Assembly: GCA_029855935.1 (NCBI GenBank)
Contig: JAGSHN010000012.1
Span: 1 to 64,000 of the forward strand
Source: Candidatus Thorarchaeota archaeon
Lineage (GTDB): Archaea > Asgardarchaeota > Thorarchaeia > Thorarchaeales > Thorarchaeaceae
Length of the DNA: 64,000 nt
Direction: 5' to 3'
Program-made: the position numbers and the translations under genes
Part shown: positions 21,886 through 42,334 of the stretch, piece by piece
How the letters are laid out: each line of letters begins with the position of its first letter
How positions within the stretch are numbered: the stretch's first letter is position 1
Notes under the pieces: generated by a model
The model's database searches: none
What the model saw: only the letters and a program-made list of their open reading frames with translations
Told to the model about the DNA's origin: nothing

Positions 21886-24192
21886 TTATAGCCGCCCGCG
21901 ACCTAGGTCCTCAAGCAGGTCCTCCAGTTCGTTCTTCAGCTTGAGAGCCTCCATCTTCAGACTGCGCGAAACACTCGCCCCCATGACTCTCAGGAGGATA
22001 GCAACGGTGTAGTAGACTTCTTCTATTGCATTCTCTACTATTCCTGGCATGTCATCCTCGTGGACCACCTCCTCGATTCTGCCGTCTGGGAGGGACCTCA
22101 AGATTTTCTCCACAAGATCTTCTCTCAGTCCAGTCCTTGCCACGGCTATGTCTACAAGCACCGGTCGTAGTCTGGCGCCTCTCTTGCTGATGGTCCTTAT
22201 CACCCGCTTCGCATCCGCGACAGGTACGCCCAGCATGACGACATTGCGGCCAAGGTCCGTGCAGCGGGAACTTCCTCTCCCCCGCACGATGAGCCTGTCC
22301 CGTTCCAGTTCCTCGAGAATATTGAGCCCCCGCAGGGCCTGCTGAATCACAGAGGCTGCATACGGTCGGGTCTCGTCATTGTCTAGCGCGAAGGAGGCGA
22401 ACTTCACGAGGTGCTTGCAGAGTCTGTGACGTGCTCGCCCTTGATACTTCCATGACTCGCATGAGCAGGACACACCCTCGTCAGCCCGGAGCTTGACGTA
22501 GTGCCATATCTTTCTCGTGGAGCTATGCACAAGGCCCTCAATCTTGGTTGGGGTGACAGAGACAAGGCGCACCTCGGTGTCGGGAATGGACTGCGCACGT
22601 TTGATCACCGCCTTCTGAGAGTGCATAGCGATGAGTCTCTGGGCCTCGATATCAGTTTCAATTCCGGTGTCCTGATGGATGTCCGTGATTCTGTTGCTGG
22701 CTGCCCAGTACGTCCGGCCCAAGATCTGTAGAGGCGAGTCTACATCCTTTCCCGTGCCGCTGCATATCTGGCTCAGCACGAGATCCTCTGCATTGTCTGG
22801 GTCGTCCATCAGGCTGTCAACCTCTCCCAGCCTTGGGACAATATCACCGTTCTCTCTTGTGTCGAAATATCTGCCAATTACTCGCAGGCGCTCCAGTTCG
22901 CTGTCCACAGTCACAATTCCAAAGGCCTCGTTGTCGAGGCCTGCGCGGCCTGCTGAGTACAATACCTCTGAGAACTGCCACTCGGTGAGCATTGTGGGCT
23001 CCCCTGTCCCCCTGATGTCGCGGTCCAGTGGATGCATATACACGCTCAAGAGGAAGACAACGGTGGCCCGCAGGCCACTCGCTAGAGCGAACCGTGTGGG
23101 CATAACGAGGACTGGGATGTGTCCCTCCTCCCACGCCTCCGACACTGTTCTTCTTTGAGGTCTGGCTACACCCTCGTGAAGAAAGGCGACTCCTTTTCGA
23201 ATTGTGCTAGCTAGCCTCTTCGTCAGATGACAGTACTCAAAGACCTCTGATACGTTCTCGGCAATCTGCCTGAGAAGATCACGTTCCTCGGGGGGGAGCC
23301 GGAGGTCCAACACTGGCCCCTCACTGTCGCTCACACCCGAGAGCTGCAGCGCCAAATTCTCACATGCGGAGATATTTGGGCAGAGAATTATGACCTGCCC
23401 GCGTCGGAAATGCACAAATTCCGTTAGGTCCACAAGGCTCTCGTTCAAACTACTGAACGCCTTCACACTGAAGATCCGTCTGACCTCCGGTTTCGGGTCG
23501 TGGACCGGCCTTGCCCTGAGCCACCTTCCGAGTTCCTCCAAGTCGGCTACTGGTGGCAGCATGGCGATGTACTGAATATCCCTCCCGCTTGAGAGCATAG
23601 AGACCAGTACGCTCTCTATTCGCGGTCCCATCTTTGTGTCACCAATCAAATCTAGGCGTTCGACGAACGCGCAACCCACGTCTTCGAGCAGGTCCGACCT
23701 GCTTCGAAGGGCCATACTGAGAGAGCTGAATGTGGCAATCAGCAGCCTGCCAGTGTCGCGCACTGCCCCACTCACCACTCCTCTTCGCGTCAGTGCAGTG
23801 GCCTCAATACCGAGTCTGCGGCATTTCGGGCGGAGCGACCTCAGCCTCTTCTCGACGGTATGGGGATTTGGACAGGCGATGATTGCACGGGCCCGAAAGT
23901 CTGACGCCAGATGGTTGAGCACAGCAATCTCTGCAATCTGATACCCTTCATCGTAGTCATATGTGACTAGAAGTAGACTGTTTCCGCGGATTATGCCGGC
24001 GTCTAGGGTACTGCGCTGAAAGTCTGTCAGAGTCGCATACCCCTCTCGTCTGAGTACCTCTAGGAGCCTTGGCGAGACCTGTTCATATTCCAGCTCACGC
24101 AGAGTACTCACGAATACATCTCCTATCCGCGGAAATCTCTTCAGAATACGTCTGTGCCCTCTTTCTATCAGTCTTTCGGGCATCTCTTCCAA
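21886..24192 (-). CDS. Ski2/Hel308-derived pseudo-helicase with SWIM zinc finger
   Basis: The 768-residue protein aligns with Hel308-type helicases by motif order, but its catalytic residues are gone. A Q-motif-like TDFQRSTLDAGIIRGNSLLL (55-74) is followed by TYDYDEGYQIAE where PTASGKT-LIAE is expected, so the Walker A Lys-Thr is Gly83-Tyr84. The DEIH box is ERLD at 178-181 within FVERLDLIGD. Motif VI is AGRAGL without the final Arg. At about residues 572-592 lies CSC...CKH, a SWIM zinc finger. A nucleic-acid-binding or scaffolding role, not ATP-driven unwinding, is inferred. The winged-helix and helical C-terminus are retained. Confidence 0.75.
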   Translation of the reverse strand: MEEMPERLIERGHRRILKRFPRIGDVFVSTLRELEYEQVSPRLLEVLRREGYATLTDFQRSTLDAGIIRGNSLLLVTYDYDEGYQIAEIAVLNHLASDFRARAIIACPNPHTVEKRLRSLRPKCRRLGIEATALTRRGVVSGAVRDTGRLLIATFSSLSMALRSRSDLLEDVGCAFVERLDLIGDTKMGPRIESVLVSMLSSGRDIQYIAMLPPVADLEELGRWLRARPVHDPKPEVRRIFSVKAFSSLNESLVDLTEFVHFRRGQVIILCPNISACENLALQLSGVSDSEGPVLDLRLPPEERDLLRQIAENVSEVFEYCHLTKRLASTIRKGVAFLHEGVARPQRRTVSEAWEEGHIPVLVMPTRFALASGLRATVVFLLSVYMHPLDRDIRGTGEPTMLTEWQFSEVLYSAGRAGLDNEAFGIVTVDSELERLRVIGRYFDTRENGDIVPRLGEVDSLMDDPDNAEDLVLSQICSGTGKDVDSPLQILGRTYWAASNRITDIHQDTGIETDIEAQRLIAMHSQKAVIKRAQSIPDTEVRLVSVTPTKIEGLVHSSTRKIWHYVKLRADEGVSCSCESWKYQGRARHRLCKHLVKFASFALDNDETRPYAASVIQQALRGLNILEELERDRLIVRGRGSSRCTDLGRNVVMLGVPVADAKRVIRTISKRGARLRPVLVDIAVARTGLREDLVEKILRSLPDGRIEEVVHEDDMPGIVENAIEEVYYTVAILLRVMGASVSRSLKMEALKLKNELEDLLEDLGRGRL

Positions 24193-29430: not shown

Positions 29431-32400
29431 GTGTCAGCCGCCAACGTGTCCAAGCGAAAGATGAGCATTACTGCCATCGTTGGCTCAATCATACTGGTGG
29501 CTATGATAGTCTGGGGGACCGTCACTTTCATTCAAGTGCAGGGCGGCAACGCTCGGTCAGAGGTCCCTCATAAGCGGTATTCTGATGTCACGCCATGGCC
29601 ATATGACATTCCTTGGGCTGGAGGCCGCTCGAACTGGTTCAACAACCTCAACTACACCAATCTTCCTCTAGGCCAACAGCTGCCCGAAGACCTGCTGAAT
29701 CATCTCGATGATGTCGTCTTCTATGTGTCACCTGAGGATCCCCCACAGCTGTGGAGATCAGGGTCGTACGACGGATACGATGGTTCCGGATGGAGAAAGA
29801 CCTCACGTACGCAAGTCAACTTCTCATCGTCTGTCATTACTCGAGCCGAGGCTGAGGCCATTGGGAATGAGATATACACGGTCGTCATCAACGTCACAGC
29901 GGGCCCAAGTGTGGGATCCGTAGAGCTGCCCACTTTGTTTCCTTCAATCCTTGTCATCGAGGACTCCTTCACGACCGGCCACATTGAGAATGGCACCTAT
30001 CAGCCCGATGCCGAGTCGCGACTGATTAGCTATGACCTAGAAACGGATGACTACGGGACCCTGCTGTTCAGTCCTCTCATTCAAGCCCCAACCGGGGAGA
30101 ATGTTCTCATCAGCTACGAAGTCACCTACGAGAGCCAAGACCTCCAGTACATTGCCACAAACGCACTGACTGGTGATGCTGCTCCGCCGGACATAGCAAA
30201 TATGTACGGCTCACCTGCTCTCACAGTCGACCTGACGCAACGCGTGATTGACAACATCACTCAGTTCGAGGGTGTGGGTAGCAACGCCTACGAGACCGCA
30301 ATGATAGTGGCAAACTATTTCCAGACCAAGTTCAGTCTTCTGATGAACCAGTCCCAAATCCTTGAGCGTCCGCCAGAGAATCAGGAGGTGACAGACTGGT
30401 TCCTTGAGAGGGGCGGCGGTCTTCCAATGGACTTTGCAACGGCATACTGTGTGTTTATGAGGTATCTGGGCATACCGGCAAGAATGGTCTACGGATATGC
30501 CGTGGGCGATCCTGAGGGCGGTTATCGGACAATCCGTGTTCGGCATATGATGTTCTGGGCGGAGGTATTTGTTCCGCTCAATGACGTGAACGGCGGGCAA
30601 TGGGTTCAGGTCATCCCGCTCCCCCTGCCTCCTGATATGGGCGGCTCAGAGGTTCCTGAGAACACGGAGGCGGGGAACGTGCAGCTCTGGGTGTTCACAG
30701 ACCTCCCACAGGGCTGGGTGGTGATTGGCCACCCGTTCACCCTGAGTGCCATGATGCTCGTCAATGGCATCCCCGTGACACGGGGCGAGCAGATTCTCTT
30801 CCACGACCAGACAGACAGTCATCTCCTTGGCGTCGCGGATATCGTTCAGGGCAAATATCTCCCACTTGCAAACCTGACTTATACATATGATGAGCAGGCC
30901 ACGCCAGGTCCTCACAATATTACTGCAACATTTCAAGGACCGAACTTTGAGGTGTCAAACTACACAATTATCTATGTGGTTGCTCAACCAAACCCCCTCA
31001 CGATGAGTGAGATTCCGGAGCGCTCTGTGTTGGCAAGTACGATTGATGTTGACCTTCAGCTTGGTCTTGACAACTACACCGCTCTGTGGGAGGATACAGT
31101 CCACGTACACGGAGTGATGACAGTCGGAGGGCAACCCGTAGATGGCAGTACGCTCGTGAACAACCAGATTCAGATAATGTGGGATGACGCAATCGTAGGC
31201 AACGCGACAATCCAGTCCGATGGATCCTATCAGTATGACATCTTTGTCGGTCCGACCGATCCTCTGATGTCTGTTGGGACCCACGAGGTCTGGTCTTCGT
31301 ACGCTGGCGAGTATACCCCCCAGGGGATTCCCATTCTACTACCCGCTCGCTCTGAGGACAATTCTACCGTGGATGTCAAGGGACGCATCTCCATATCCCT
31401 GACCGTGACCCCAACTACGGCCTATCGCGGAACGTCGATTCACTATGATGGCACTGCGGAGCTATTGAACGGGACTCCATTGAGACTGGAGTGGATTGGC
31501 ATCTTCTTTGGCGGAACCTACCTGACGTCGGTGCGGAGCAATATCACAGGTGGTTTCTCATACGACTATACAATTCCCAGCGACCACCCTATTGGAGTCT
31601 TTGCTGCACAGGTGAACTGGAGCTCCACCATGGTCGGCATCCTCGGCAACTGGAGCAATTCTGTCGATGTCGACATTCAGGTCAACGGAGCTGATATCAC
31701 CATTACCTCCACCCCCTCAAGTCCGGACCCAGTACACCCGTTCGAGACAATCACAATCTCTGGATACCTGACTGACAAGGTGAACGGCTCGGGTCTTGTA
31801 GGCAAGACGGTCGATATCTGGTGGTATAATGGAACCTCCTACAAGATTGGTTCGGTCACAACGGGAACCGACGGCTATTACGAGTTCAACTATGTGGTCC
31901 CGGGTGGCTACCTTGGATCGGTAAACTACTGGTCTGAGTTCGTGTCCACCACTACGGGTTACGAGGGAGCAACATCCACAACCATGTCCATTCAGGTTGT
32001 CCCTTGGCCCACTGACCTCAGCCTCAGTGTTTCGCCGAGTCCTGCTCATCCCGATGAGGACATCACCATCAATGGCGCGTTGACGGTTCCCGGACAGGGT
32101 GGGAATCCGCTCTCAAACGGAGCCGTTACAATCTGGTGGCAGAACTCGACTGGGAGTTTCAACCTCACAGTGCAGCTGACCAATGCTACGGGCCTCTACT
32201 CGTTTGTGTATCACATTCCGCTCAATCACGAATTTGGCACGGTCTTGGTCTGGGCCGAGTTTGTCTCGCCTTGGCTTGAGTACGAGGACTCCACATCATC
32301 AGTATTCTCGCTCACAGTGACAAACTACACAACCTCATTGTCGATATTCTCCAATCGCAGCTACTACCATCTCAATGAGACAGCCTACATTTGGGGTCGG

Positions 32401-35400
32401 CTGACCTTTGAGAATGGGACGCCCATTGCAGGCCACAATGTTACCCTGTATTGGATCAACAGTACTGGGTCATTCTCTTATCCGCTGGCGACAAACAGCT
32501 CTGGCTGGTTCAACTTCTACTACGCCCTCGACCCCGCGAAGGACAGTGTGGAGAATGTCACAGTCACAGTCGAGTTCATCTCATGGACGCGTCTGCACTC
32601 AGATGCCACCGCATCAATATCCCCCCTTCCTCTACAGCTCTACCAGCTCGACCTCGCAGCCGCTCTCAATGCTTCCCAATACCATCAGGATGAGGCCTTG
32701 TTGCTCACAGGTACGCTGACCTTCCATGAGAATGGTGCAGGAATAGCCGGTGAGACGATATATGTCTACTATCGCAACTCAATGGGTCTGTTCCAGTATC
32801 TCAAGGTCACCAACAGCTCAGGAGGGTTCTCCTTTCAGTACAACTTCACATTGAACGATACGCTTGGCGCAATCTATGTCTGGGCCGAGTACAATAGCAG
32901 TAATCAGCTCTGGGCTGATGCTCAATCGGCCAATCGGACCGCCACAGTCATCCTGTACTCTCTATCTCTGACAACCTTCACCAACTCGACCTCATATCAT
33001 CTCAACGAGACAATCCACGTCTACGGGCAACTGACGTTTCAACACAACGGCACTGCAATTGTGGGGGAGTCCGTTACAATCTGGATGCTTTGGAACAATG
33101 GCACGCAACATAGTTTTGCGGGATATGTGACCAATGCGACAGGATACTACAACTTCTACTACAATTGTTCCGTGACCAAGGACTCTGCGGCGACCATTAC
33201 CATCTGGGCCAAGTACGTACGTACCAACGTGTTATGGGATAATGCCTCATCATTACCTGGCAAGGATGTTGACCTGATACTCTATCCCCTCACTCTGACG
33301 CTGAGCAGTCCAAGCCCCATCTACCTCGACGAACCGCTGGTGTTCACTGGCCAGCTGACGCACCAGGGAGGGAGTCCCCCACTGGCCTCACAGACTGTGA
33401 ACATCTACATCCTGCAGGGATCGGACTGGGTATTGCTCACATCTGCCGTCACGAACAGTACTGGCCATTTCGTGGTCAGCGTGTCCGGTGCACTCACGGC
33501 TGAAGGGACCTACTACTTCAAGGCCAACTACTCGAGTACCAACCCGCTGAATGCTGATGCAGAGACTCCAACAAGCATCACTGTTGACGCCCAGAGGTAT
33601 CCTATCTTCGTAGACATCTGGGTCACACCGACCACCGTCAAGCTCAACGAGTCAGTACTGATTCAGGCGCAGTTGACCTTTGGTAACAACGCGTCTGCGG
33701 TTGTCGGCGAGACTGTGCTCCTGCACTGGTACAACGGCACCGACTATGTGATCCTCTCTGCCGTGACCAATGGAAGCGGATTCGTCACTCTCAACTACTC
33801 CGATTTGGAGGGCCACACGGTCTGGACTGGCATTGAGGTATATGCCACCTTCGCGGGCACGTGGCTCTTGGGAGCCAACAGCTCGGTGCACGTGAGCGTC
33901 ATACTCGAGCAGTGGCTGACACTCATCACTGGTTTCACAACGTATGGTCAGGCATCGTTCTATATCTTGGACTACATCCACATCAATGGGACACTCTACT
34001 ACGACTTGCCGGGGCCAGACAAGCCATTTGCGTACGTAGATGTGACAATCCTGTTGGATGGCAACCCAGTCGGTACCGTGACCACGCTCTGGAATGGCAC
34101 GTTTGACGCATTCTGGAGGATTCCCGATGATGCGTCAGAGGGTTCGCATCAGCTTAGTGTGGCCTTTATGTCGCCGTACTCTTGGATTGCAGACTACGAG
34201 ACCTCCCCCACAACGGTTGTCTTCAACAAGTACGACCTTGTATGGACGTTTGATGCCACTCCTCAGGATCCCGTATATCTGACAGAGATGCTGAGTGTCA
34301 GTGGCACGGTCTATCTCAGCAACGGCACGCCACTCGCCAACGAAGAGGTGACTCTCTACTGGCTGCTCTCAGGCGCAACGACATCAACGATTATTGCGCA
34401 GTTCTCAACAGCTCCTGACGGTTCATTCAGTTATGCGTTTAGTGTTGGCGAGGACACCGCCACGGGCCCAGCACAGATCTGGGCGTACTGTGCTCCCACC
34501 CAACCGTACATCAACTCTGGAGCCAGCACTCATGTGAATCTGAACATTAGTGCAATCCCAGTCGACCTGAATATCGCTCCCTACCCGACACTGTTCTATC
34601 GTGGCGAGCGGTTCCGTGTGACGGGGCATCTCGCGTGGGGCAACGGTACTGGCGATGATATGGTCGGCTACTCCGTGGGACTCTACATCAATGGCGAGCT
34701 GATGGCAGCAAACATGACAGGCTCGGACGGCAGCTTTATTCTTGTCTTTGATTTCAACTGGACCTATCCTGTGGGGGCCGTACCCACGAGGATTGCCTTT
34801 CTGAGGCCCAGTATCGCCTTTGAGGAGACTCAGACAGGTCCTGTTACCGTCGAGATTCACGACAGGATAACAATCACACTTGACTCTCCAACGGTCTCAA
34901 TGATCGTGTTTGGGGAGACCCTCACAATATCTGGTGTTGTGAACAACGCTCATGCCGCTGTTGCTGGAGTTCCTCTGATTGTGCTTATCGATGGCTCTAG
35001 GTCGTCCTTTGCCACAGGAAACAGTCTTCCTAATGGCACATTCTCTCTCTCCCTTGTCGTATCGGACTCTCTTGCGCCGGGTGACCACAACTTCTCTGTC
35101 GCTCCTGACTCGGACTACTACGAGCTTAGCGAAAGCGTGGCGGGCTGGGACATTGCTGTCTACATCGGCAGTGACCTCTCAGTCTACGTGCCATCGGCCG
35201 AATCGGTCACCCGCGGGGAGAACTTTACGGTTCAGATTCGTCTGCTTGACCAGTACGGCCAGAGCGTGGTGGGTATTGTCACCGTCTACTTGAATGACAC
35301 TGCCTTGCAGTCTATTGAGGTGGACTCGACCACTTGGGCATCATTCGAACTGACAGTGCCCACATCTTGGTCAGAGAGCGGATACTACTTTGTGAAGGTA

Positions 35401-36225
35401 GAGTATGCGGGAGACCGTCCGAACTACATCAACGGCTCCTCTGCAGTGGCCAATACTCCCATTCATGTCTTTGCAAACGCCGAGGTGGTTCTCGACTCCC
35501 CATCAGGTGACACGATTGCTGTCGGGACGTCCCTTGTCATCAGTGGCACATTGGTGGACGACTCTGCCTCCGCGTTCCCCGTGGCCGGAAGGACACTCAC
35601 AATAACTGTAAATGGTCAGAGCAGTACTGTCATCACTGATCAAGATGGCAGGTTCTCGGTCGTGGCTGTGGACCGAACCCTTAATGGTACGTACTCGATC
35701 AGAATTACGCTGAGCACGAGCACGGGCACAGACATCACTGTGTCGAGCTTCACAGTCCTAGCTCAGGCAAACACAGGTGGTAATATGCAGCTTGCAGACC
35801 TACTGATTCCGGGGATAGCGCTTGCCGCTGCTGTTGTGGCAGTGCTACTGTATCTGTACTTCGTGCGTGGCTACTTCAGAGGCCGTGCGCCGACTGTTGG
35901 CATCGACATCGCTGGAAAGCTTCGGAATATCAAGCGCTTGGCCGATGCAGGCAAGTATGATGCTGCAGTGTCATTGGCGTACCGTACCTTTGAGCAGATG
36001 TGCGGAATCAAGACTGGTGACGAGCGGAAGAGCTCGGAGACATCCCGCGAGTACTTGGAGCGCGTGGTGAAGTCACTGCCAGTCGACCCCGCCACCGTCG
36101 AACAGTTCGTGGAACTATACGAGGAGGCACGATTCTCGCATCACCAGGTCACCCGCGAGAAGTACGAGGATGCAATCAGAATCTTCACAGACCTGTATCC
36201 GCGCATTGAGATTAGTCCCAAGTAG
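29431..36225 (+). CDS. Giant cell-surface protein: inactive transglutaminase-like domain, ~16 Ig-like repeats, C-terminal membrane anchor
   Basis: The 2264-residue protein has an N-terminal membrane segment (about residues 13-33), then a region like TgpA-type transglutaminases (LWRSGSYDGYDGSGW). The core GLPMDFATAYCVFMRYLGIPAR aligns with G-x-C-x-DFA, but the catalytic Cys is Pro332. The His of HAW is Met374 (MFWAEV) and the Asp of WVPxDP is Ile395 (WVQVIP). From about residue 430 to 2110 there are some 16 tandem ~100-residue Ig-like repeats with shared elements (YHLNETI-x-V-x-G-QLTF, VTNSTG, F-x-Y). Many Asn-X-Ser/Thr sites suggest glycosylation. A second membrane span (about 2124-2147) leads to a ~117-residue cytoplasmic DUF4129-like tail. 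It heads an operon with DUF4350, MoxR, DUF58 and membrane genes. Start is GTG. Confidence 0.85.
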   Translation: MSAANVSKRKMSITAIVGSIILVAMIVWGTVTFIQVQGGNARSEVPHKRYSDVTPWPYDIPWAGGRSNWFNNLNYTNLPLGQQLPEDLLNHLDDVVFYVSPEDPPQLWRSGSYDGYDGSGWRKTSRTQVNFSSSVITRAEAEAIGNEIYTVVINVTAGPSVGSVELPTLFPSILVIEDSFTTGHIENGTYQPDAESRLISYDLETDDYGTLLFSPLIQAPTGENVLISYEVTYESQDLQYIATNALTGDAAPPDIANMYGSPALTVDLTQRVIDNITQFEGVGSNAYETAMIVANYFQTKFSLLMNQSQILERPPENQEVTDWFLERGGGLPMDFATAYCVFMRYLGIPARMVYGYAVGDPEGGYRTIRVRHMMFWAEVFVPLNDVNGGQWVQVIPLPLPPDMGGSEVPENTEAGNVQLWVFTDLPQGWVVIGHPFTLSAMMLVNGIPVTRGEQILFHDQTDSHLLGVADIVQGKYLPLANLTYTYDEQATPGPHNITATFQGPNFEVSNYTIIYVVAQPNPLTMSEIPERSVLASTIDVDLQLGLDNYTALWEDTVHVHGVMTVGGQPVDGSTLVNNQIQIMWDDAIVGNATIQSDGSYQYDIFVGPTDPLMSVGTHEVWSSYAGEYTPQGIPILLPARSEDNSTVDVKGRISISLTVTPTTAYRGTSIHYDGTAELLNGTPLRLEWIGIFFGGTYLTSVRSNITGGFSYDYTIPSDHPIGVFAAQVNWSSTMVGILGNWSNSVDVDIQVNGADITITSTPSSPDPVHPFETITISGYLTDKVNGSGLVGKTVDIWWYNGTSYKIGSVTTGTDGYYEFNYVVPGGYLGSVNYWSEFVSTTTGYEGATSTTMSIQVVPWPTDLSLSVSPSPAHPDEDITINGALTVPGQGGNPLSNGAVTIWWQNSTGSFNLTVQLTNATGLYSFVYHIPLNHEFGTVLVWAEFVSPWLEYEDSTSSVFSLTVTNYTTSLSIFSNRSYYHLNETAYIWGRLTFENGTPIAGHNVTLYWINSTGSFSYPLATNSSGWFNFYYALDPAKDSVENVTVTVEFISWTRLHSDATASISPLPLQLYQLDLAAALNASQYHQDEALLLTGTLTFHENGAGIAGETIYVYYRNSMGLFQYLKVTNSSGGFSFQYNFTLNDTLGAIYVWAEYNSSNQLWADAQSANRTATVILYSLSLTTFTNSTSYHLNETIHVYGQLTFQHNGTAIVGESVTIWMLWNNGTQHSFAGYVTNATGYYNFYYNCSVTKDSAATITIWAKYVRTNVLWDNASSLPGKDVDLILYPLTLTLSSPSPIYLDEPLVFTGQLTHQGGSPPLASQTVNIYILQGSDWVLLTSAVTNSTGHFVVSVSGALTAEGTYYFKANYSSTNPLNADAETPTSITVDAQRYPIFVDIWVTPTTVKLNESVLIQAQLTFGNNASAVVGETVLLHWYNGTDYVILSAVTNGSGFVTLNYSDLEGHTVWTGIEVYATFAGTWLLGANSSVHVSVILEQWLTLITGFTTYGQASFYILDYIHINGTLYYDLPGPDKPFAYVDVTILLDGNPVGTVTTLWNGTFDAFWRIPDDASEGSHQLSVAFMSPYSWIADYETSPTTVVFNKYDLVWTFDATPQDPVYLTEMLSVSGTVYLSNGTPLANEEVTLYWLLSGATTSTIIAQFSTAPDGSFSYAFSVGEDTATGPAQIWAYCAPTQPYINSGASTHVNLNISAIPVDLNIAPYPTLFYRGERFRVTGHLAWGNGTGDDMVGYSVGLYINGELMAANMTGSDGSFILVFDFNWTYPVGAVPTRIAFLRPSIAFEETQTGPVTVEIHDRITITLDSPTVSMIVFGETLTISGVVNNAHAAVAGVPLIVLIDGSRSSFATGNSLPNGTFSLSLVVSDSLAPGDHNFSVAPDSDYYELSESVAGWDIAVYIGSDLSVYVPSAESVTRGENFTVQIRLLDQYGQSVVGIVTVYLNDTALQSIEVDSTTWASFELTVPTSWSESGYYFVKVEYAGDRPNYINGSSAVANTPIHVFANAEVVLDSPSGDTIAVGTSLVISGTLVDDSASAFPVAGRTLTITVNGQSSTVITDQDGRFSVVAVDRTLNGTYSIRITLSTSTGTDITVSSFTVLAQANTGGNMQLADLLIPGIALAAAVVAVLLYLYFVRGYFRGRAPTVGIDIAGKLRNIKRLADAGKYDAAVSLAYRTFEQMCGIKTGDERKSSETSREYLERVVKSLPVDPATVEQFVELYEEARFSHHQVTREKYEDAIRIFTDLYPRIEISPK

Positions 36226-36244: not shown

Positions 36245-37633
36245 ATGGTTTGGAAGCAGACCCTCTGGATTGCCCTGTTTATGCTCTCATGGTTCCCAGT
36301 GGGTATGCTCATCTATGCCAGCAGCACGACCACGACCTACACTCAGGACTTCAGCATCTTCAATGAGGACTGGAACGGATACAGTACGTGGCGACAGGAC
36401 ATCAGCGACATGGGATACGAAACCCTAGCAATTCAGTCCTCGATGAGCGTAGTCACCAGATACAACGGCAGTGCAGTCCTTGTGGTTTCCGGCCCAGTCA
36501 TAGGTTTCTCCATAGACGCCGTGTTTGTGATATTCAATCACCTGATGCGTGGTGGGGGTGTGCTCATCGCCGACGACTTCGGGTCTGCAAACAGGTCTTT
36601 TGCACTGCTGAATAACCTCGTTGCAGGGGCTGCGAGCGGCACTGCACCTGTGAAGGTTCAAGGACTACTCGCCTTCACTGGCGGAGTGTTGCTGGACTTG
36701 GACTCCTACGACAAAACGCCCAAGCTGCCCGTCATCACGGATCTTCGGCCTGGGCTGGATGGTGGCGCTCTCACACAGGGAGTCACGAGTCTTCATCTCA
36801 ACTGGGCCACAGCCCTGAGCCCGAAGTCCGCCCTTGGCCTCTCAGGAATAGCGTGGACAACGCGCCGTGCGTGGTGCGACAAGAACATCTCGGATCCCAA
36901 CCCCTATCCCGACCCTGACGAGTGGAACGGCTCACTACCAGTTGCTGGAGCAATCGACCTCAGTCTTGTGCTGAGTCCCCGAGCGGGACGCATTGTTGCA
37001 GTCAGCGATCCGAGCATGTTCACCAATGACATGATCAACCGCGGCGACAACCGCCGCTTCGCCCAGAACATAATCTCGTGGCTCTCCCACGGGGACACGG
37101 ATCAGCCCGTTGTGTTCTGCGAGGACCTGCTGGCGACACCATGGTATGCTCCGGAGTTCTTCTTTGGCGCGTATCTGTCGCGCGTCCTCTGGCTATCTAC
37201 ACTGCCCTACATCTCCGCGGTGTATCCCTTCATCACGGTTGTCGGCATCAAGAAGTATCTCCCGGACATAAAGAAGCCAGAGGTCAAGGCGGTGTCCGAG
37301 GTCTTTGTGAGGCGCGGCCGGACCTACTTCAGTGAACGAATGGCGTACTATCGTACAGAGGGGAACTATGCTCGCGTGGTCAAGATGCTGTATCGGAAGT
37401 TGAAACGGGATCTGAAACGTACACAGGGCTGGGCGGACTACGATGCGCTCAAGGTATGGGACCTGCTGAAGAGCAAGGACCCTCAGATGACGAGGGACGA
37501 CTTTCTCAAGCGGATACAACGGATTGAGGCGATATCATCAAACCCGCGAATGAAGATTCGCGAGAGCGAGATGATGGACCTATTCTTTTTCATGCGTACT
37601 ATTCAAGACAAGCTTGTTGAATCAAAGATGTAG
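36245..37633 (+). CDS. DUF4350-domain membrane protein
   Basis: A signal/anchor segment near residues 8-26 precedes a DUF4350-like domain (RGGGVLIADDFGSANRSFALLNNL). DUF4350 proteins resemble GATase-like sensors and accompany transglutaminase/MoxR operons in bacteria and archaea. A second hydrophobic segment near residues 310-335 (LSRVLWLSTLPYISAVYPF) is followed by a basic helical cytoplasmic tail. Its DNA follows the giant gene by 20 bases. Function is inferred only from the neighbours. Confidence 0.8.
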   Translation: MVWKQTLWIALFMLSWFPVGMLIYASSTTTTYTQDFSIFNEDWNGYSTWRQDISDMGYETLAIQSSMSVVTRYNGSAVLVVSGPVIGFSIDAVFVIFNHLMRGGGVLIADDFGSANRSFALLNNLVAGAASGTAPVKVQGLLAFTGGVLLDLDSYDKTPKLPVITDLRPGLDGGALTQGVTSLHLNWATALSPKSALGLSGIAWTTRRAWCDKNISDPNPYPDPDEWNGSLPVAGAIDLSLVLSPRAGRIVAVSDPSMFTNDMINRGDNRRFAQNIISWLSHGDTDQPVVFCEDLLATPWYAPEFFFGAYLSRVLWLSTLPYISAVYPFITVVGIKKYLPDIKKPEVKAVSEVFVRRGRTYFSERMAYYRTEGNYARVVKMLYRKLKRDLKRTQGWADYDALKVWDLLKSKDPQMTRDDFLKRIQRIEAISSNPRMKIRESEMMDLFFFMRTIQDKLVESKM

Positions 37634-37652
37634 TGATGAGGTGTTGAACGAG

Positions 37653-38639
37653 ATGACAATTGACGAGACCAGCGGACATGGTCACGGGTCGATGGATGTG
37701 ATGACTATAGACGAGGTCCACGACCTCACCCGTGAGATAATCCGTGAGGTACAACGCGTAATAGTCGGGAAGACTGAGATTCTGCGTGACTGCCTCATAG
37801 CAATGCTATCAAATGGTCACGTTGTTCTGGAGGGCGTCCCAGGACTTGCAAAGACCTACATGGCAAGGACTTTTGCATCCATCTTGGGTCTGCAGTTCAA
37901 ACGCATTCAGCTGACAGTAGACACACTCCCTGCGGACATCCTGGGAAGCAACGTGTTCAACCAGAAGAGCGGCGAGTTCTGGTTCAGGAAAGGACCAGTA
38001 TTTGCCAACCTGGTATTGGCCGATGAGATCAATCGCTGTCCTCCGAAGTCCCAGAGCGCGCTGCTCGAGGTCATGGAGGAGCGTCAGGTTTCCATCGAGG
38101 GTGTGACCCGGAAGCTCCCCGAACCGTTCTTGATAATCGCCACGCAGAACCCTGTCGAGCAAGAGGGAACCTATCCTCTTCCGGAGGCACAACTCGACAG
38201 GTTCATGTTCCGACTCATCCTCGACTATCCGACAAAGAACGAGGAGGCTGAGGTGATTCGGAGGAAGCATCAGGGCGAGGTGACCGATCTCAGGGTCCTT
38301 GCGGACGCTGAAACAATCATCCGGATGCAGAACACATGCAAGCTCGTCTACGTGGATGAGGACATAATCAACTATATCCGTGACATAATCGTCCGCACGC
38401 GTAACGACCCTCAGATACTCCTCGGTGGCTCACCACGCGCCTCGCTGGTACTTCTCAGTGCGTCGAAGGCACGAGCGGCGATGCACGGACGAGACTATGT
38501 CATCCCCGAGGATGTGAGGAAGCTCGCCGTACAGGCTCTGAACCACAGACTTCTGCTGAAACCAGAGGCCGAGCTTGAGGGAATGACGGTCGAGCGCGTG
38601 ATTGCCAAGATACTCGGCGAGGTTGACTGTCCTCGCTAG
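37653..38639 (+). CDS. MoxR-family AAA+ ATPase
   Basis: Walker A is GVPGLAKT, Walker B LADEINRCPPKSQSALLEVMEE, sensor 1 IATQNPVEQEG and the C-terminal lid helices follow. MoxR ATPases act as chaperones that mature partner proteins or insert metal cofactors, usually with a VWA protein, here the DUF58 gene downstream. I chose the ATG at 37653, after a GAGGTG Shine-Dalgarno, in preference to an in-frame ATG at 37614 that would overlap DUF4350. Confidence 0.93.
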   Translation: MTIDETSGHGHGSMDVMTIDEVHDLTREIIREVQRVIVGKTEILRDCLIAMLSNGHVVLEGVPGLAKTYMARTFASILGLQFKRIQLTVDTLPADILGSNVFNQKSGEFWFRKGPVFANLVLADEINRCPPKSQSALLEVMEERQVSIEGVTRKLPEPFLIIATQNPVEQEGTYPLPEAQLDRFMFRLILDYPTKNEEAEVIRRKHQGEVTDLRVLADAETIIRMQNTCKLVYVDEDIINYIRDIIVRTRNDPQILLGGSPRASLVLLSASKARAAMHGRDYVIPEDVRKLAVQALNHRLLLKPEAELEGMTVERVIAKILGEVDCPR

Positions 38640-38673
38640 GTCGGACGGAATACCTTCCCGGAGAAGATCTGCG

Positions 38674-39996
38674 GTGCTGACCCAGAGAGGCTTTGTCGTG
38701 GTCTTTGGCGGCGTGCTACTACTGAGTAGTGGATTCTCCTACCAGAACTTCTACCTTACCCTGCTAGGTATATATCTCCTCGTCGGTCTCGTCGTCACAC
38801 TCCCTCTGTTTGCCCTGACTGCAAACGTGGCAGGGATTGAGGTAGAACGAACTCTCGACAAGACAAAGGTCTTCTCGGGCGACTTTGTACGTGTGCGTGT
38901 CACAATTCACAACCGTTCTCGTCGTCACTTCGACTTTATCGAGGTATGGGATCAGTACCCAGAGACGTGGATCCTAGCGATTGGTGAGAACTTTATGGCA
39001 TCTCGGATTGAGCCCGGGTCGAGCATCACGTTCTCGTACATTCTTCAGGTGCGGATGCGAGGCAAGTACCATATCGGCCCGACTGAGGTGATAATGCGGG
39101 ATCGTCTTGGTCTCCACTACTACAAGAGGACCCTGAAGGCTCAGACAGAGATACTCGTCTACCCGACGTGGAAAGACGTCCGCAGGATGGAGGCCCTTGG
39201 CAAGCAGCGTCAATTGGGACTTATGTTCGGTGCGCACAGGACAAGAGTGGTCGGTATGGGCACCGACTTTGCTGGTTTCAGAGTCTACGTCCCGGGCGAT
39301 GCGTTCAGACTGATTGACTGGAAGACCACGGCGAAGAGAGGCAAGCTGGTGGTCAAGCAGTTCGAGATGGAGAAAAATATTCAGATAATGTGCATGGTCG
39401 ACACGTCAGGTTCGATGGGTAACGGATATCCGGAGAACACTAAGCTCGAATACGCGATTCGTGCAGCCGTCTTGTTGACATATATGGGTCTGGAGCGCAA
39501 GGATCTGGTCGGCACGTGTGTCTTCTCGGACAAGGTTCACTCCTTCGTCGCACCAGCACTCAGCCCGAGCCACATGTATGATGTTCTTGAGGCGTTGGCT
39601 CTGGCTGAGCCCCGTGGTTGGAGCAACTTTGAGGCCGCCGTCGAGTATGTGACGAAACAGCTAAACAAGCGCACACTGTTCATATTCCTGACTGACCTTG
39701 AGGAGAGTCCCGCCCCACTACTCAATGCAATGAAGAGAGTCATTGCCAATGGCCACAAGGCACAGGTCATCAGTCCCTTCGGACCCTGGTTCGAGGCTCC
39801 TGTTGGTCAGTTTGGGCCCGTCGAACGTGTTCTTGCTGAGGCTGTCCAAGAGGAGCTATGGGAGCGGAGGAGCAAGATCGCTCGCGCCTTGGCACGATTC
39901 GGGATTGATGTTGTCAACGTAGGTCCAGAAGACTTCCTGCCCGTCATCATCAAGCAGTACAACTTGGCCAAACAGAGGGGGGTGGCGCTGTATTGA
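38674..39996 (+). CDS. DUF58/VWA-type protein
   Basis: Two N-terminal membrane spans (RGFVVVFGGVLLLSSGF, and YLLVGLVVTLPLFALTA) precede a beta-rich region, then the DUF58 signature (DAFRLIDWKTTAKRGKLVVKQFE) and a von Willebrand A MIDAS motif DTSGSMG. DUF58 proteins work with MoxR ATPases. In-frame TTG codons at 38602 and 38623 would overlap the moxR end; the GTG at 38674 has GGAG upstream and gives a family-typical N-terminus, so I prefer it. The stop overlaps the next gene by four bases. Confidence 0.88.
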   Translation: MLTQRGFVVVFGGVLLLSSGFSYQNFYLTLLGIYLLVGLVVTLPLFALTANVAGIEVERTLDKTKVFSGDFVRVRVTIHNRSRRHFDFIEVWDQYPETWILAIGENFMASRIEPGSSITFSYILQVRMRGKYHIGPTEVIMRDRLGLHYYKRTLKAQTEILVYPTWKDVRRMEALGKQRQLGLMFGAHRTRVVGMGTDFAGFRVYVPGDAFRLIDWKTTAKRGKLVVKQFEMEKNIQIMCMVDTSGSMGNGYPENTKLEYAIRAAVLLTYMGLERKDLVGTCVFSDKVHSFVAPALSPSHMYDVLEALALAEPRGWSNFEAAVEYVTKQLNKRTLFIFLTDLEESPAPLLNAMKRVIANGHKAQVISPFGPWFEAPVGQFGPVERVLAEAVQEELWERRSKIARALARFGIDVVNVGPEDFLPVIIKQYNLAKQRGVALY

Positions 39997-41378
39997 AGAC
40001 AGTCACATGGATACTCCGCATACTGTCAACAGCGACATTCGCCTACATGTGCTTTATCGTATACAATCAGCTGCGCGGGTACTGGGACTGGAACTCCCCA
40101 TACGTCTTCATTGTGACAGTGTACCGCATTCTATCGCTCCTCCTCTTCTATCTGGTCATCATAGTGGCGCAAGGGTTTGAGCAGCTTGTTGGAGGTGGCG
40201 CCAGTAGCTCGCTCGCAACGGCGCTCTTCAACACCATCATGCTCAAGTTCTGGTACCTGCAACCCTACGGAGGAGCAACCCCTTTCACGGACATTCAACA
40301 GGTCTTCCTCTACCTGAATACGCAACTCGGCATAATCGCGATGGATCTCTGGGACCGCACCTTTACATTCCTCTACTTTCTCTTCGCAGGTATTGGAGTG
40401 GCAATGTTTCTGCAGTCCCTGTTCCGAATGGAGCACAAATTTGTTGCTGGTGCATTCCTCTCGATCCAAGCGATAATGATTGTGGCAGCCTTCAGGGGCC
40501 TTCCCATCTACGGTCAGGAGCCTATAGCCACTGGTTTCCTCGGCTTCCTCACGTCAGGACTACAGATTCTCGCTCTTGTGTCCTTTGCCTATCTTGAGAT
40601 CAGCTATCAGATGATCTACAGCTACTCAGTCGGGAAGCCTGTTGAGGATCGGCAAGAAACGCTCAAGAAACAGCTTCTAGCGCTGCGGGCCGAAGTCCGG
40701 AAACAGGATGCCATTGAGAGAGGTGAGAAGGTTGCGGCGACATCTACCAGCAGGCTATCAGGTGGTGCGACAGCGTTCTCATTCCTCCGTGAGGTGATAG
40801 AGCGCAAGTTATTGGGATCACGGGAAGCGCTTGAGAACCTCGATGCTGTCAGCGACATCCGACGTCTCAACATCTACATAGACCAGCTTCTTGCATCGGA
40901 CCCGAGTGCCCGTGACGAGCTGACAGCACGAGCAGCCGCCCCGTCCTCAGGATATGTGATCTACTCGACAGTCCTCGGCTCGATAATCCGGTTCCTGAGC
41001 GTGGTGGCGCTATCATATATTCTCGTCAACCCGCTTATACTGATAGAGCTGCTCAATCTCCCCCCGGGCATTTCGTATAGTGTGGAACTGCAGCAACCCG
41101 AGATGGTCGTGATTCTCCTTGTTCCAGTCCTCTTGCTCCTCGCCTTCATTGCTGCGATGATCCGCTGGTACTCTCAATGGGAGGAGGAGGCCCTCCAGCG
41201 GCAGATTGAGGCCGAGGAGAAGCGCAAGGCCCGTGAGAAGAAGAGAGAGGCCCGGCGGCTCCGCAGGGAGGCAAGAAAGAGGAGGAAGGCCCTGGAGAGG
41301 GGCCCAGAAGAAGGGGAAATCGACGAGTGGGATCGTGTGTTAGGAGAACTATACCAGTCGGAAGGCTCAGAGTCATGA
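39993..41378 (+). CDS. Polytopic membrane protein of the MoxR/DUF58 operon
   Basis: I do not recognise a named family. The 461 residues include about five hydrophobic spans in the first 210 residues and two more between about 330 and 390. A loop of ~120 hydrophilic residues lies between them. The C-terminus is a highly charged Lys/Arg/Glu helix (EKRKAREKKREARRLR) likely to be a cytoplasmic coiled coil. The start is TTG overlapping the DUF58 TGA stop. It presumably forms the membrane partner of the MoxR-DUF58 system, an inference from position. Confidence 0.75.
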   Translation: MKTVTWILRILSTATFAYMCFIVYNQLRGYWDWNSPYVFIVTVYRILSLLLFYLVIIVAQGFEQLVGGGASSSLATALFNTIMLKFWYLQPYGGATPFTDIQQVFLYLNTQLGIIAMDLWDRTFTFLYFLFAGIGVAMFLQSLFRMEHKFVAGAFLSIQAIMIVAAFRGLPIYGQEPIATGFLGFLTSGLQILALVSFAYLEISYQMIYSYSVGKPVEDRQETLKKQLLALRAEVRKQDAIERGEKVAATSTSRLSGGATAFSFLREVIERKLLGSREALENLDAVSDIRRLNIYIDQLLASDPSARDELTARAAAPSSGYVIYSTVLGSIIRFLSVVALSYILVNPLILIELLNLPPGISYSVELQQPEMVVILLVPVLLLLAFIAAMIRWYSQWEEEALQRQIEAEEKRKAREKKREARRLRREARKRRKALERGPEEGEIDEWDRVLGELYQSEGSES

Positions 41379-42334
41379 AGCACATTGTTCTCACTCACGG
41401 CGATGTTGATGGGCTGACGTCAGGGACGATCGGGGTGCTCGCTCTCCCTGGTGCGGACGTATATCTGACGCGACCCTCTCAGATTCACCAAGACCTGTAT
41501 CGTGTCGCCAAGGACGAACCCGATGTGGTGTCGATTAGTGACATCGCAGTGAATGTTGCCAGATTCGACGACATCATGCGGGCACTCTCTCGGTTTCCCG
41601 ACAAGACCACAATTCACTGGACCGACCACCATCCCCTATCAGCGCGTCTAAAGAGGAGATTGTCACAATGCGTCGAACTGTTTCACGAGATAGGCCCTTG
41701 CGCAGCAGAACTGATGTACCGGAAGTTCGAGGACGCTCTGCCTGAGCACGCGCTGCGTATAGCACTCTACGGGGCGATTGCTGACTACTGTGACAACACA
41801 CCCTTTACAAGGCGTCACTTCGATGACTTTGACAAGCGGACCCTCTATCTGGAGTCAGGCCTTCTCGTGCAGGCGCTGCAGGAGATTGACTACCGCCGAG
41901 AGTCGAAGGACATCATCTGGAGTATGGCTCTGGGGCTGGAGCCTAGTGCAATGCCCAACATTGTCTCCCTAGCAGTACAAGCCACGCGCATTGAGCATCA
42001 GATGTTTCAGTACGTACAGCAGTATGCGAAGAAGATGGGGCCGATAGGCTACGTCCTCGACGTCCCAATGGGTGGCTACCGGGGGAAGACTGCCAAGTTT
42101 GCTGCCTACGTCACAGACTCCGAGATTGGAATCAGCGCCAGGACAAGTGGCGACGAAGTGGATATGTCAATCAGGAGGAGGGGATCCCGTGTCGACCTCA
42201 ATAGACTCCTCAACAAGGTGATACCACAGCTCGACAACGCACAGGGCGGAGGCCATCCAGCCGCCTGCGGGGCTGCCGTGAGCCGTAGTGACTTTCCCCG
42301 CTTTCTGCAGCTGATGGGCGAAGAACTGGTGTGA
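41375..42334 (+). CDS. DHH/DHHA1-type phosphoesterase
   Basis: The product has the DHH-family motifs HGDVDGLTSG at the N-terminus, WTDHHPL and the DHHA1 glycine motif GGGHPAACGA near the C-terminus, with an additional acidic segment (IADYCDNTP) between. Members include nanoRNases, RecJ-like nucleases and cyclic-dinucleotide phosphodiesterases. Its ATG overlaps the stop of the preceding membrane gene by four bases, so it is transcribed with the operon; whether it is functionally part of it is unclear. A longer frame from 41327 is less likely. Confidence 0.85.
   Translation: MKHIVLTHGDVDGLTSGTIGVLALPGADVYLTRPSQIHQDLYRVAKDEPDVVSISDIAVNVARFDDIMRALSRFPDKTTIHWTDHHPLSARLKRRLSQCVELFHEIGPCAAELMYRKFEDALPEHALRIALYGAIADYCDNTPFTRRHFDDFDKRTLYLESGLLVQALQEIDYRRESKDIIWSMALGLEPSAMPNIVSLAVQATRIEHQMFQYVQQYAKKMGPIGYVLDVPMGGYRGKTAKFAAYVTDSEIGISARTSGDEVDMSIRRRGSRVDLNRLLNKVIPQLDNAQGGGHPAACGAAVSRSDFPRFLQLMGEELV

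Follow-up and report, generated by a model that had tools for sequence, protein, structure and literature searches.

What does a membrane-anchored surface protein do with a transglutaminase fold from which the catalytic residues have gone? The question is raised by a gene of Candidatus Thorarchaeota archaeon which lies in the 64 000-nucleotide stretch of DNA analysed here, referred to below as the window (contig JAGSHN010000012.1, positions 1–64 000). The answer depends on the architecture of the protein, the residues found at its former active site, the genes that accompany it and the state of its relatives throughout the Asgard phylum.

Architecture of the surface protein

The gene (window 29431–36225, + strand, as are all features of the protein given below) is an open reading frame from a GTG start to the stop and encodes 2264 residues. 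These are arranged as an N-terminal transmembrane segment, a transglutaminase-like (TGc-like) domain, an array of Ig-like repeats, a second transmembrane segment and a DUF4129 domain. The first transmembrane segment (residues 16–34, 29476–29532), recognized by hydropathy, directly precedes the TgpA-like domain and is probably an uncleaved signal anchor. Its sequence is conserved in 20 orthologues (RRKMGxTTI..W28..VR) with positive charge on the N-terminal side of the segment, and the same 20 sequences reveal no consistent cleavage motif after it. The TgpA-like domain comprises residues 85–400 (29683–30630). Within it, the Pfam profile Transglut_core (PF01841) matches residues 284–394 (30280–30612) with 49.5 bits against a curated cut-off of 23, and a whole-genome search led to the same place.

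Residues 554–2094 (31090–35712) form 15 Ig-like repeats of about 105 residues each, as detected by an iterative HMM, and a weaker 16th repeat lies ahead of them, in agreement with the approximately 16 repeats counted in the earlier note. Three consecutive repeats were modelled by AF2 as beta-sandwich domains (pLDDT 92.7), and Foldseek matched the repeats to adhesin extender domains, macroglobulin-type domains and KIR/LILR Ig domains in the PDB. Beyond the array follow the C-terminal transmembrane segment (residues 2124–2142, 35800–35856; hydropathy) and the DUF4129 domain (residues 2183–2250, 35977–36180; Pfam, 47.8 bits), which is presumably cytoplasmic.

Because the conserved N-terminal segment has no consistent cleavage motif and a second segment is found beyond the Ig array, the chain is probably anchored in the membrane at both ends. 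With both ends so placed, the pseudo-domain may sit near the membrane and not at a tip. The earlier picture of a TGc-like domain on top of Ig-like repeats that reach away from the membrane is thus doubtful.

The three catalytic positions

The transglutaminase fold carries its Cys at the start of a helix, and its His and Asp in the strands that follow. In the window protein, these positions are occupied by Pro332 (30424–30426), Met374 (30550–30552) and Ile395 (30613–30615); the flanking stretches DFATAY, LGIPAR and WAEVFVP are present. An AF2 model of the domain, built from a 36-row alignment (pLDDT 80.6, pTM 0.81), was compared with the PDB by Foldseek. This gave the AlphaFold check that had been proposed for the domain a positive outcome: the fold is transglutaminase/papain-like, and the best match is TgpA (6g49; E 1.8e-13, probability 1.00, TM-score 0.57–0.60 as normalised to the target).

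The register of the three slots was judged by AF2 secondary structure and by sequence alignment to TgpA. With phmmer, GGLPMDF aligns to SGFCAHY of chain 6g49, which places Pro332 on the Cys, and HMMFWAEV aligns to DAHAWVEY, which places Met374 on the His. In the model, a long helix begins exactly at P332 (model residues 295–308), M374 is found within the next long strand (336–346, corresponding to residues 373–383) and I395 at the end of the strand after that (352–357, residues 389–394). Since alignment and register agree, we regard the assignment as right, and the replacement of Cys, His and Asp by Pro, Met and Ile between retained flanks, as read in the earlier note, stands. The domain belongs to the Transglut_core superfamily by a profile score above the curated cut-off and by its fold, and it lacks the Cys-His-Asp triad of a catalytic transglutaminase or thiol peptidase.

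Conservation in Thorarchaeia

All 34 Thorarchaeial genomes that were read have Pro at position 332. At position 374 they have M, T, V, I, A, L or Q, never His, and at position 395 they have I, L or V, never Asp or Glu; an intact C-H-D triad is absent from this locus in 34 of 34 orthologues. Pairwise dN/dS between close Thorarchaeial pairs is 0.04–0.15, and the gene is therefore not decaying. Together with the intact long ORFs in dozens of MAGs, these values rule out a decaying gene or an assembly error as the source of the substitutions.

The 20 aligned Thorarchaeial sequences have no conserved Cys in the TGc-like domain. Across the aligned N-terminal region, C340 marks the one column in which Cys occurs more than once; it is Cys in 15 sequences and Ser, Thr or Ala in five. 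The view taken in the earlier note, that the fold was kept while catalysis was lost, is strongly supported by the missing triad residues, the low dN/dS and the lack of a conserved Cys.

Leu331, Pro332, His372, Met373, Phe375 and Gln393 are invariant in the 20 orthologues, which are 52–64% identical to the window protein. Invariant columns are enriched round the former active site (15/39 versus 38/286 elsewhere; Fisher p 3e-4), which is weak evidence for binding because the same motifs build the core of the fold. The invariant Pro332, Met373 and Phe375 beside a His slot that is free to vary would be the pattern of a re-purposed site, short of a proof of binding. The variable hydrophobic residues at positions 374 and 395 are as compatible with a filled or structural core as with a groove for binding.

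Two irregular cases were encountered. In CP070658.1, the ‘chromosome’ of bin8 (L050 and L069), the orthologue is represented by two incomplete copies that lie about 650 kb from each other. One is an ORF cut after 652 residues and the other starts mid-domain, which looks like a rearrangement or a misassembly. Two loci titled Lokiarchaeota (L068 and L071) contain Thorarchaeia-type sequences (PML and PMI), and the MoxR+DUF58 tree described below groups them within the Thorarchaeial clade; their titles may therefore be misassigned.

A conserved operon related to TgpA-type systems

The gene heads a cluster in which four further genes follow on the same strand and nearly contiguously. They encode a DUF4350 protein (36245–37633, +; Pfam), whose downstream position is conserved across Asgard archaea, a MoxR AAA+ ATPase (37614–38639, +; AAA_3, 212 bits), a DUF58 protein with a vWA-like domain and two transmembrane segments (38602–39996, +; Pfam), and a multi-spanning membrane protein without a family (39993–41378, +), which gene-order comparison identifies as the last recurrent member. 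The same order, with the TGc protein first, is found in Thorarchaeia, Hermodarchaeia, Baldrarchaeia and further Asgard families. Because of this shared order, we consider the Asgard TGc genes to be orthologous in context and not random members of the family. The upstream neighbours, genes for a CYTH protein (+) and an HD protein (−), are also kept in Thorarchaeia. A gene for a DHHA1-domain protein (DHH/RecJ-type phosphoesterase; 41327–42334, +) overlaps the end of the last cluster gene, and a 768-residue ORF at 21886–24192 (−) has no Pfam match at E 0.001.

The tgpA gene (PA2873) of Pseudomonas aeruginosa shares a transcript with PA2875 and PA2874; disruption of tgpA and of PA2874 yielded few mutants, as it did for an essential control, and both genes appear essential, and the TG domain of TgpA was reported to be active in a transglutaminase assay (PMC3507681). 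The Thorarchaeial protein resembles TgpA, its closest structural match, in having a membrane-anchored transglutaminase-like ectodomain and in being encoded in a gene cluster. However, TgpA keeps Cys-His-Asp and is without the Ig array of roughly 1540 residues that is inserted in the Thorarchaeial protein, and the Thorarchaeial cluster contains a DUF4350 gene and has another gene order than the tgpA operon. We take TgpA to end in DUF4129 and the genes of the PA2875-PA2874-PA2873 cluster to include those of a MoxR ATPase and a DUF58 protein. The Thorarchaeial locus likewise has a membrane-anchored TGc protein ending in DUF4129, with MoxR and DUF58 genes in the same cluster, and this cluster is kept in relatives. 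As fold, anchor and operon are those of a TgpA-type system but the triad is missing, we file the protein as a dead variant of that system, in which the transglutaminase-like ectodomain of a DUF4129-bearing membrane protein of the TgpA type has quite probably become a pseudoenzyme.

Clusters of MoxR, DUF58 and TGc genes occur in distant bacteria and archaea. In bifidobacteria, the PFNA cluster consists of pkb2-fn3-aaa-atp-duf58-tgm (PMC8430577). Like it, the Thorarchaeial locus combines a MoxR ATPase, a DUF58 protein, a transglutaminase-like membrane protein and a repeat-rich part in one cluster. In PFNA, however, the large FN3 protein and the transglutaminase are separate, whereas in Thorarchaeia the Ig-like repeats and the TGc-like domain share one chain; PFNA adds a Ser/Thr kinase, and its TGM is a presumed enzyme whereas the Thorarchaeial domain is devoid of the triad. 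No pkb2 kinase was found at the head of the Thorarchaeial cluster, where the upstream genes are those for the CYTH and HD domain proteins. Inactive proteins of the transglutaminase fold are known in EPB42 (band 4.2) and FBXO21 (PMC10318531), which also keep the fold without catalysis. These are human and intracellular, whereas we are dealing with an archaeal surface protein, a phylum-wide change and a conserved operon.

The triad across the Asgard phylum

A profile built mostly from Cys-less sequences detected the TGc-like domain in 158 of 196 Asgard genomes. The triad was read in 134 of them, the columns being less certain in the weakest matches (families f14–f17 and f22): Cys is missing in 126 genomes and kept in eight, all of which belong to two families, f11 and f4. 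The proportion is similar where operon genes were seen in the flank, with Cys kept in seven of 64 genomes, again only in f11 and f4. Family f11 has C-H-D. In f4, one chain has two such domains, a C-H-D domain (once C-Y-D) and, after it, one with P-H-D. The suggestion that orthologues be checked for an intact triad therefore led to a divided result, with none in Thorarchaeia but with C-H-D kept in two other Asgard families.

The residues at the slots vary among the other families. Family f9 (Hermodarchaeia) has G-H-D, f2 has W/Y/F-Y-D and f17 has I/F/S-Y-Q; S-H-D is found in f3, f6 and f12 (the latter two Baldrarchaeia) and in other families, including Odin- and Helarchaeial ones. Since several relatives have S-H-D or G-H-D, with His and Asp remaining, the Cys was lost first. 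The lineages with G-H-D, W-Y-D, N-I-D and I-Y-Q keep the same operon with neither Cys nor Ser at the slot. Other TGc domains from these genomes served as a control; of those read (mostly top-scoring matches), 26 of 26 keep Cys, which rules out a triad loss general to Asgard TGc domains.

The tandem loci of f4 (L036, 8255–10168, −; L037, 3888–5771, +; L098; L099; the C-Y-D case being L037) pair an apparent enzyme with a neighbouring pseudoenzyme copy within one operon.

History of the Cys loss

On a tree of MoxR plus DUF58, the Cys-bearing rows form one clade (support 99) which is nested among Cys-less rows, and equal-cost parsimony counts one change. A single nested Cys clade allows two histories, in which the Cys was lost several times or was lost early and regained once. 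The tree fits both histories alike, so that a single, clean loss is unsupported. A tree of the TGc domain, computed without the triad columns, requires a minimum of four separate changes to account for Pro at the slot. On this tree, the second domains of f4, which are P-H-D, are surrounded by Cys-bearing neighbours, and they are the clearest case of a Cys-to-Pro change with His and Asp kept.

Possible function of the triad-less domain

The TGc-like domain most likely binds something instead of catalysing, because the triad has been lost in every Thorarchaeial relative examined, the Cys is gone nearly phylum-wide and the neighbourhood has been kept. The ectodomain would hold a non-covalent partner (a surface polymer, an S-layer protein or glycoprotein, or a peptide) via the remodelled region of the former active site, and the Ig array would extend or space it. 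Binding or load would be passed on to the DUF4129 tail in the cytoplasm. There, the MoxR ATPase and the DUF58/vWA protein, itself bound to the membrane, would act on the tail as an assembly, remodelling or signalling machine. Taken alone, this mechanism of binding and coupling comes near to an even chance in our estimation, the coupling to MoxR and DUF58 being derived from gene order. The earlier note had called the domain a recognition or structural module and not an enzyme; the latter part is supported, and the role as a module is one that we infer.

Several other explanations have to be weighed against binding. The domain could be an inert structural spacer or a membrane-proximal cap, kept for folding or stability and without a ligand. 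Such a role would suit the variable hydrophobic residues at the His and Asp slots, the long Ig array and the place of the conserved motifs in the core of the fold, but the residues named above as invariant across 20 orthologues, and the recurrence of the same dead domain at the head of the operon in many Asgard families, argue against it, and we regard it as rather unlikely. Alternatively, the S-H-D relatives may be enzymes with a serine nucleophile, the Thorarchaeial loss then being a lineage-specific end point of a system that is enzymatic overall. S-H-D does occur in Baldr-, Odin-, Helarchaeial and other families, and f4 and f11 keep C-H-D; this reading is nevertheless improbable in view of the lineages that maintain the operon without Cys or Ser at the slot.

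It is extremely unlikely that the active site has moved within the fold, for example to C340 with H372, as happens in some papain-like enzymes. Migration of the site is documented in the superfamily for GP42, Atg4 and microbial transglutaminase (PMC10318531), and H372 is invariant in the 20 aligned Thorarchaeial sequences. However, C340 is replaced in a quarter of these sequences, which offer no other Cys column, and in the AF2 model its place is eight residues past the start of the helix. Hermod- and Baldrarchaeial orthologues have the counterpart of H372 in addition to the canonical His (HLH and HVH, in HLHFW and HVHFW), and because these sister lineages possess both residues, H372 is not a shifted catalytic His. 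The variability and helix position of C340 and the HLH/HVH relatives rule out a register-shifted C340/H372 dyad. If the domain served as a decoy for, or a regulator of, an active transglutaminase-like enzyme from another locus, its counterpart could be the one other TGc gene of this genome, which has an intact C-H-D (G000 C15:21861–22169). Intact C-H-D TGc genes recur in other Thorarchaeia, and f4 unites intact and P-H-D domains in one chain. The intact gene and the pseudo-TGc gene are not linked, however, and we consider a decoy very improbable.

Extended from Thorarchaeia to the phylum, the binding role leads to a tentative proposal, to which we give somewhat less than an even chance. Asgard archaea might share an ancient surface machine, composed of a TgpA-like ectodomain with an Ig array, DUF4129, DUF4350, MoxR and DUF58, in which catalysis was abandoned almost phylum-wide. 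The dead domain would have become a receptor or tether, its ligand state being read or remodelled by MoxR–DUF58, and the slot residues would have been fixed per lineage: Pro in Thorarchaeia, Trp, Tyr or Phe in f2, Gly in Hermodarchaeia and Ser in Baldrarchaeia.

The persistence of the operon across the phylum without catalysis argues that a non-catalytic role (binding, assembly, or signalling via DUF4129, MoxR and DUF58) may be its core function. Within a single phylum, one protein exists in dead, S-H-D, G-H-D and intact versions, which provide natural comparisons. No published description of the Asgard operon or of its TGc domain was found in the open-access literature, and as far as that literature shows, a conserved surface protein of the archaea nearest to eukaryotes has thus gone undescribed.

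A TGc domain with S-H-D is also located about 4 kb from a MoxR gene at three bacterial loci (L084, L085 and L086; Cyanobacteriota, Obscuribacterales), which were obtained with a biased peptide pattern. Loss of Cys in MoxR-linked TGc domains may therefore not be restricted to Asgard archaea.
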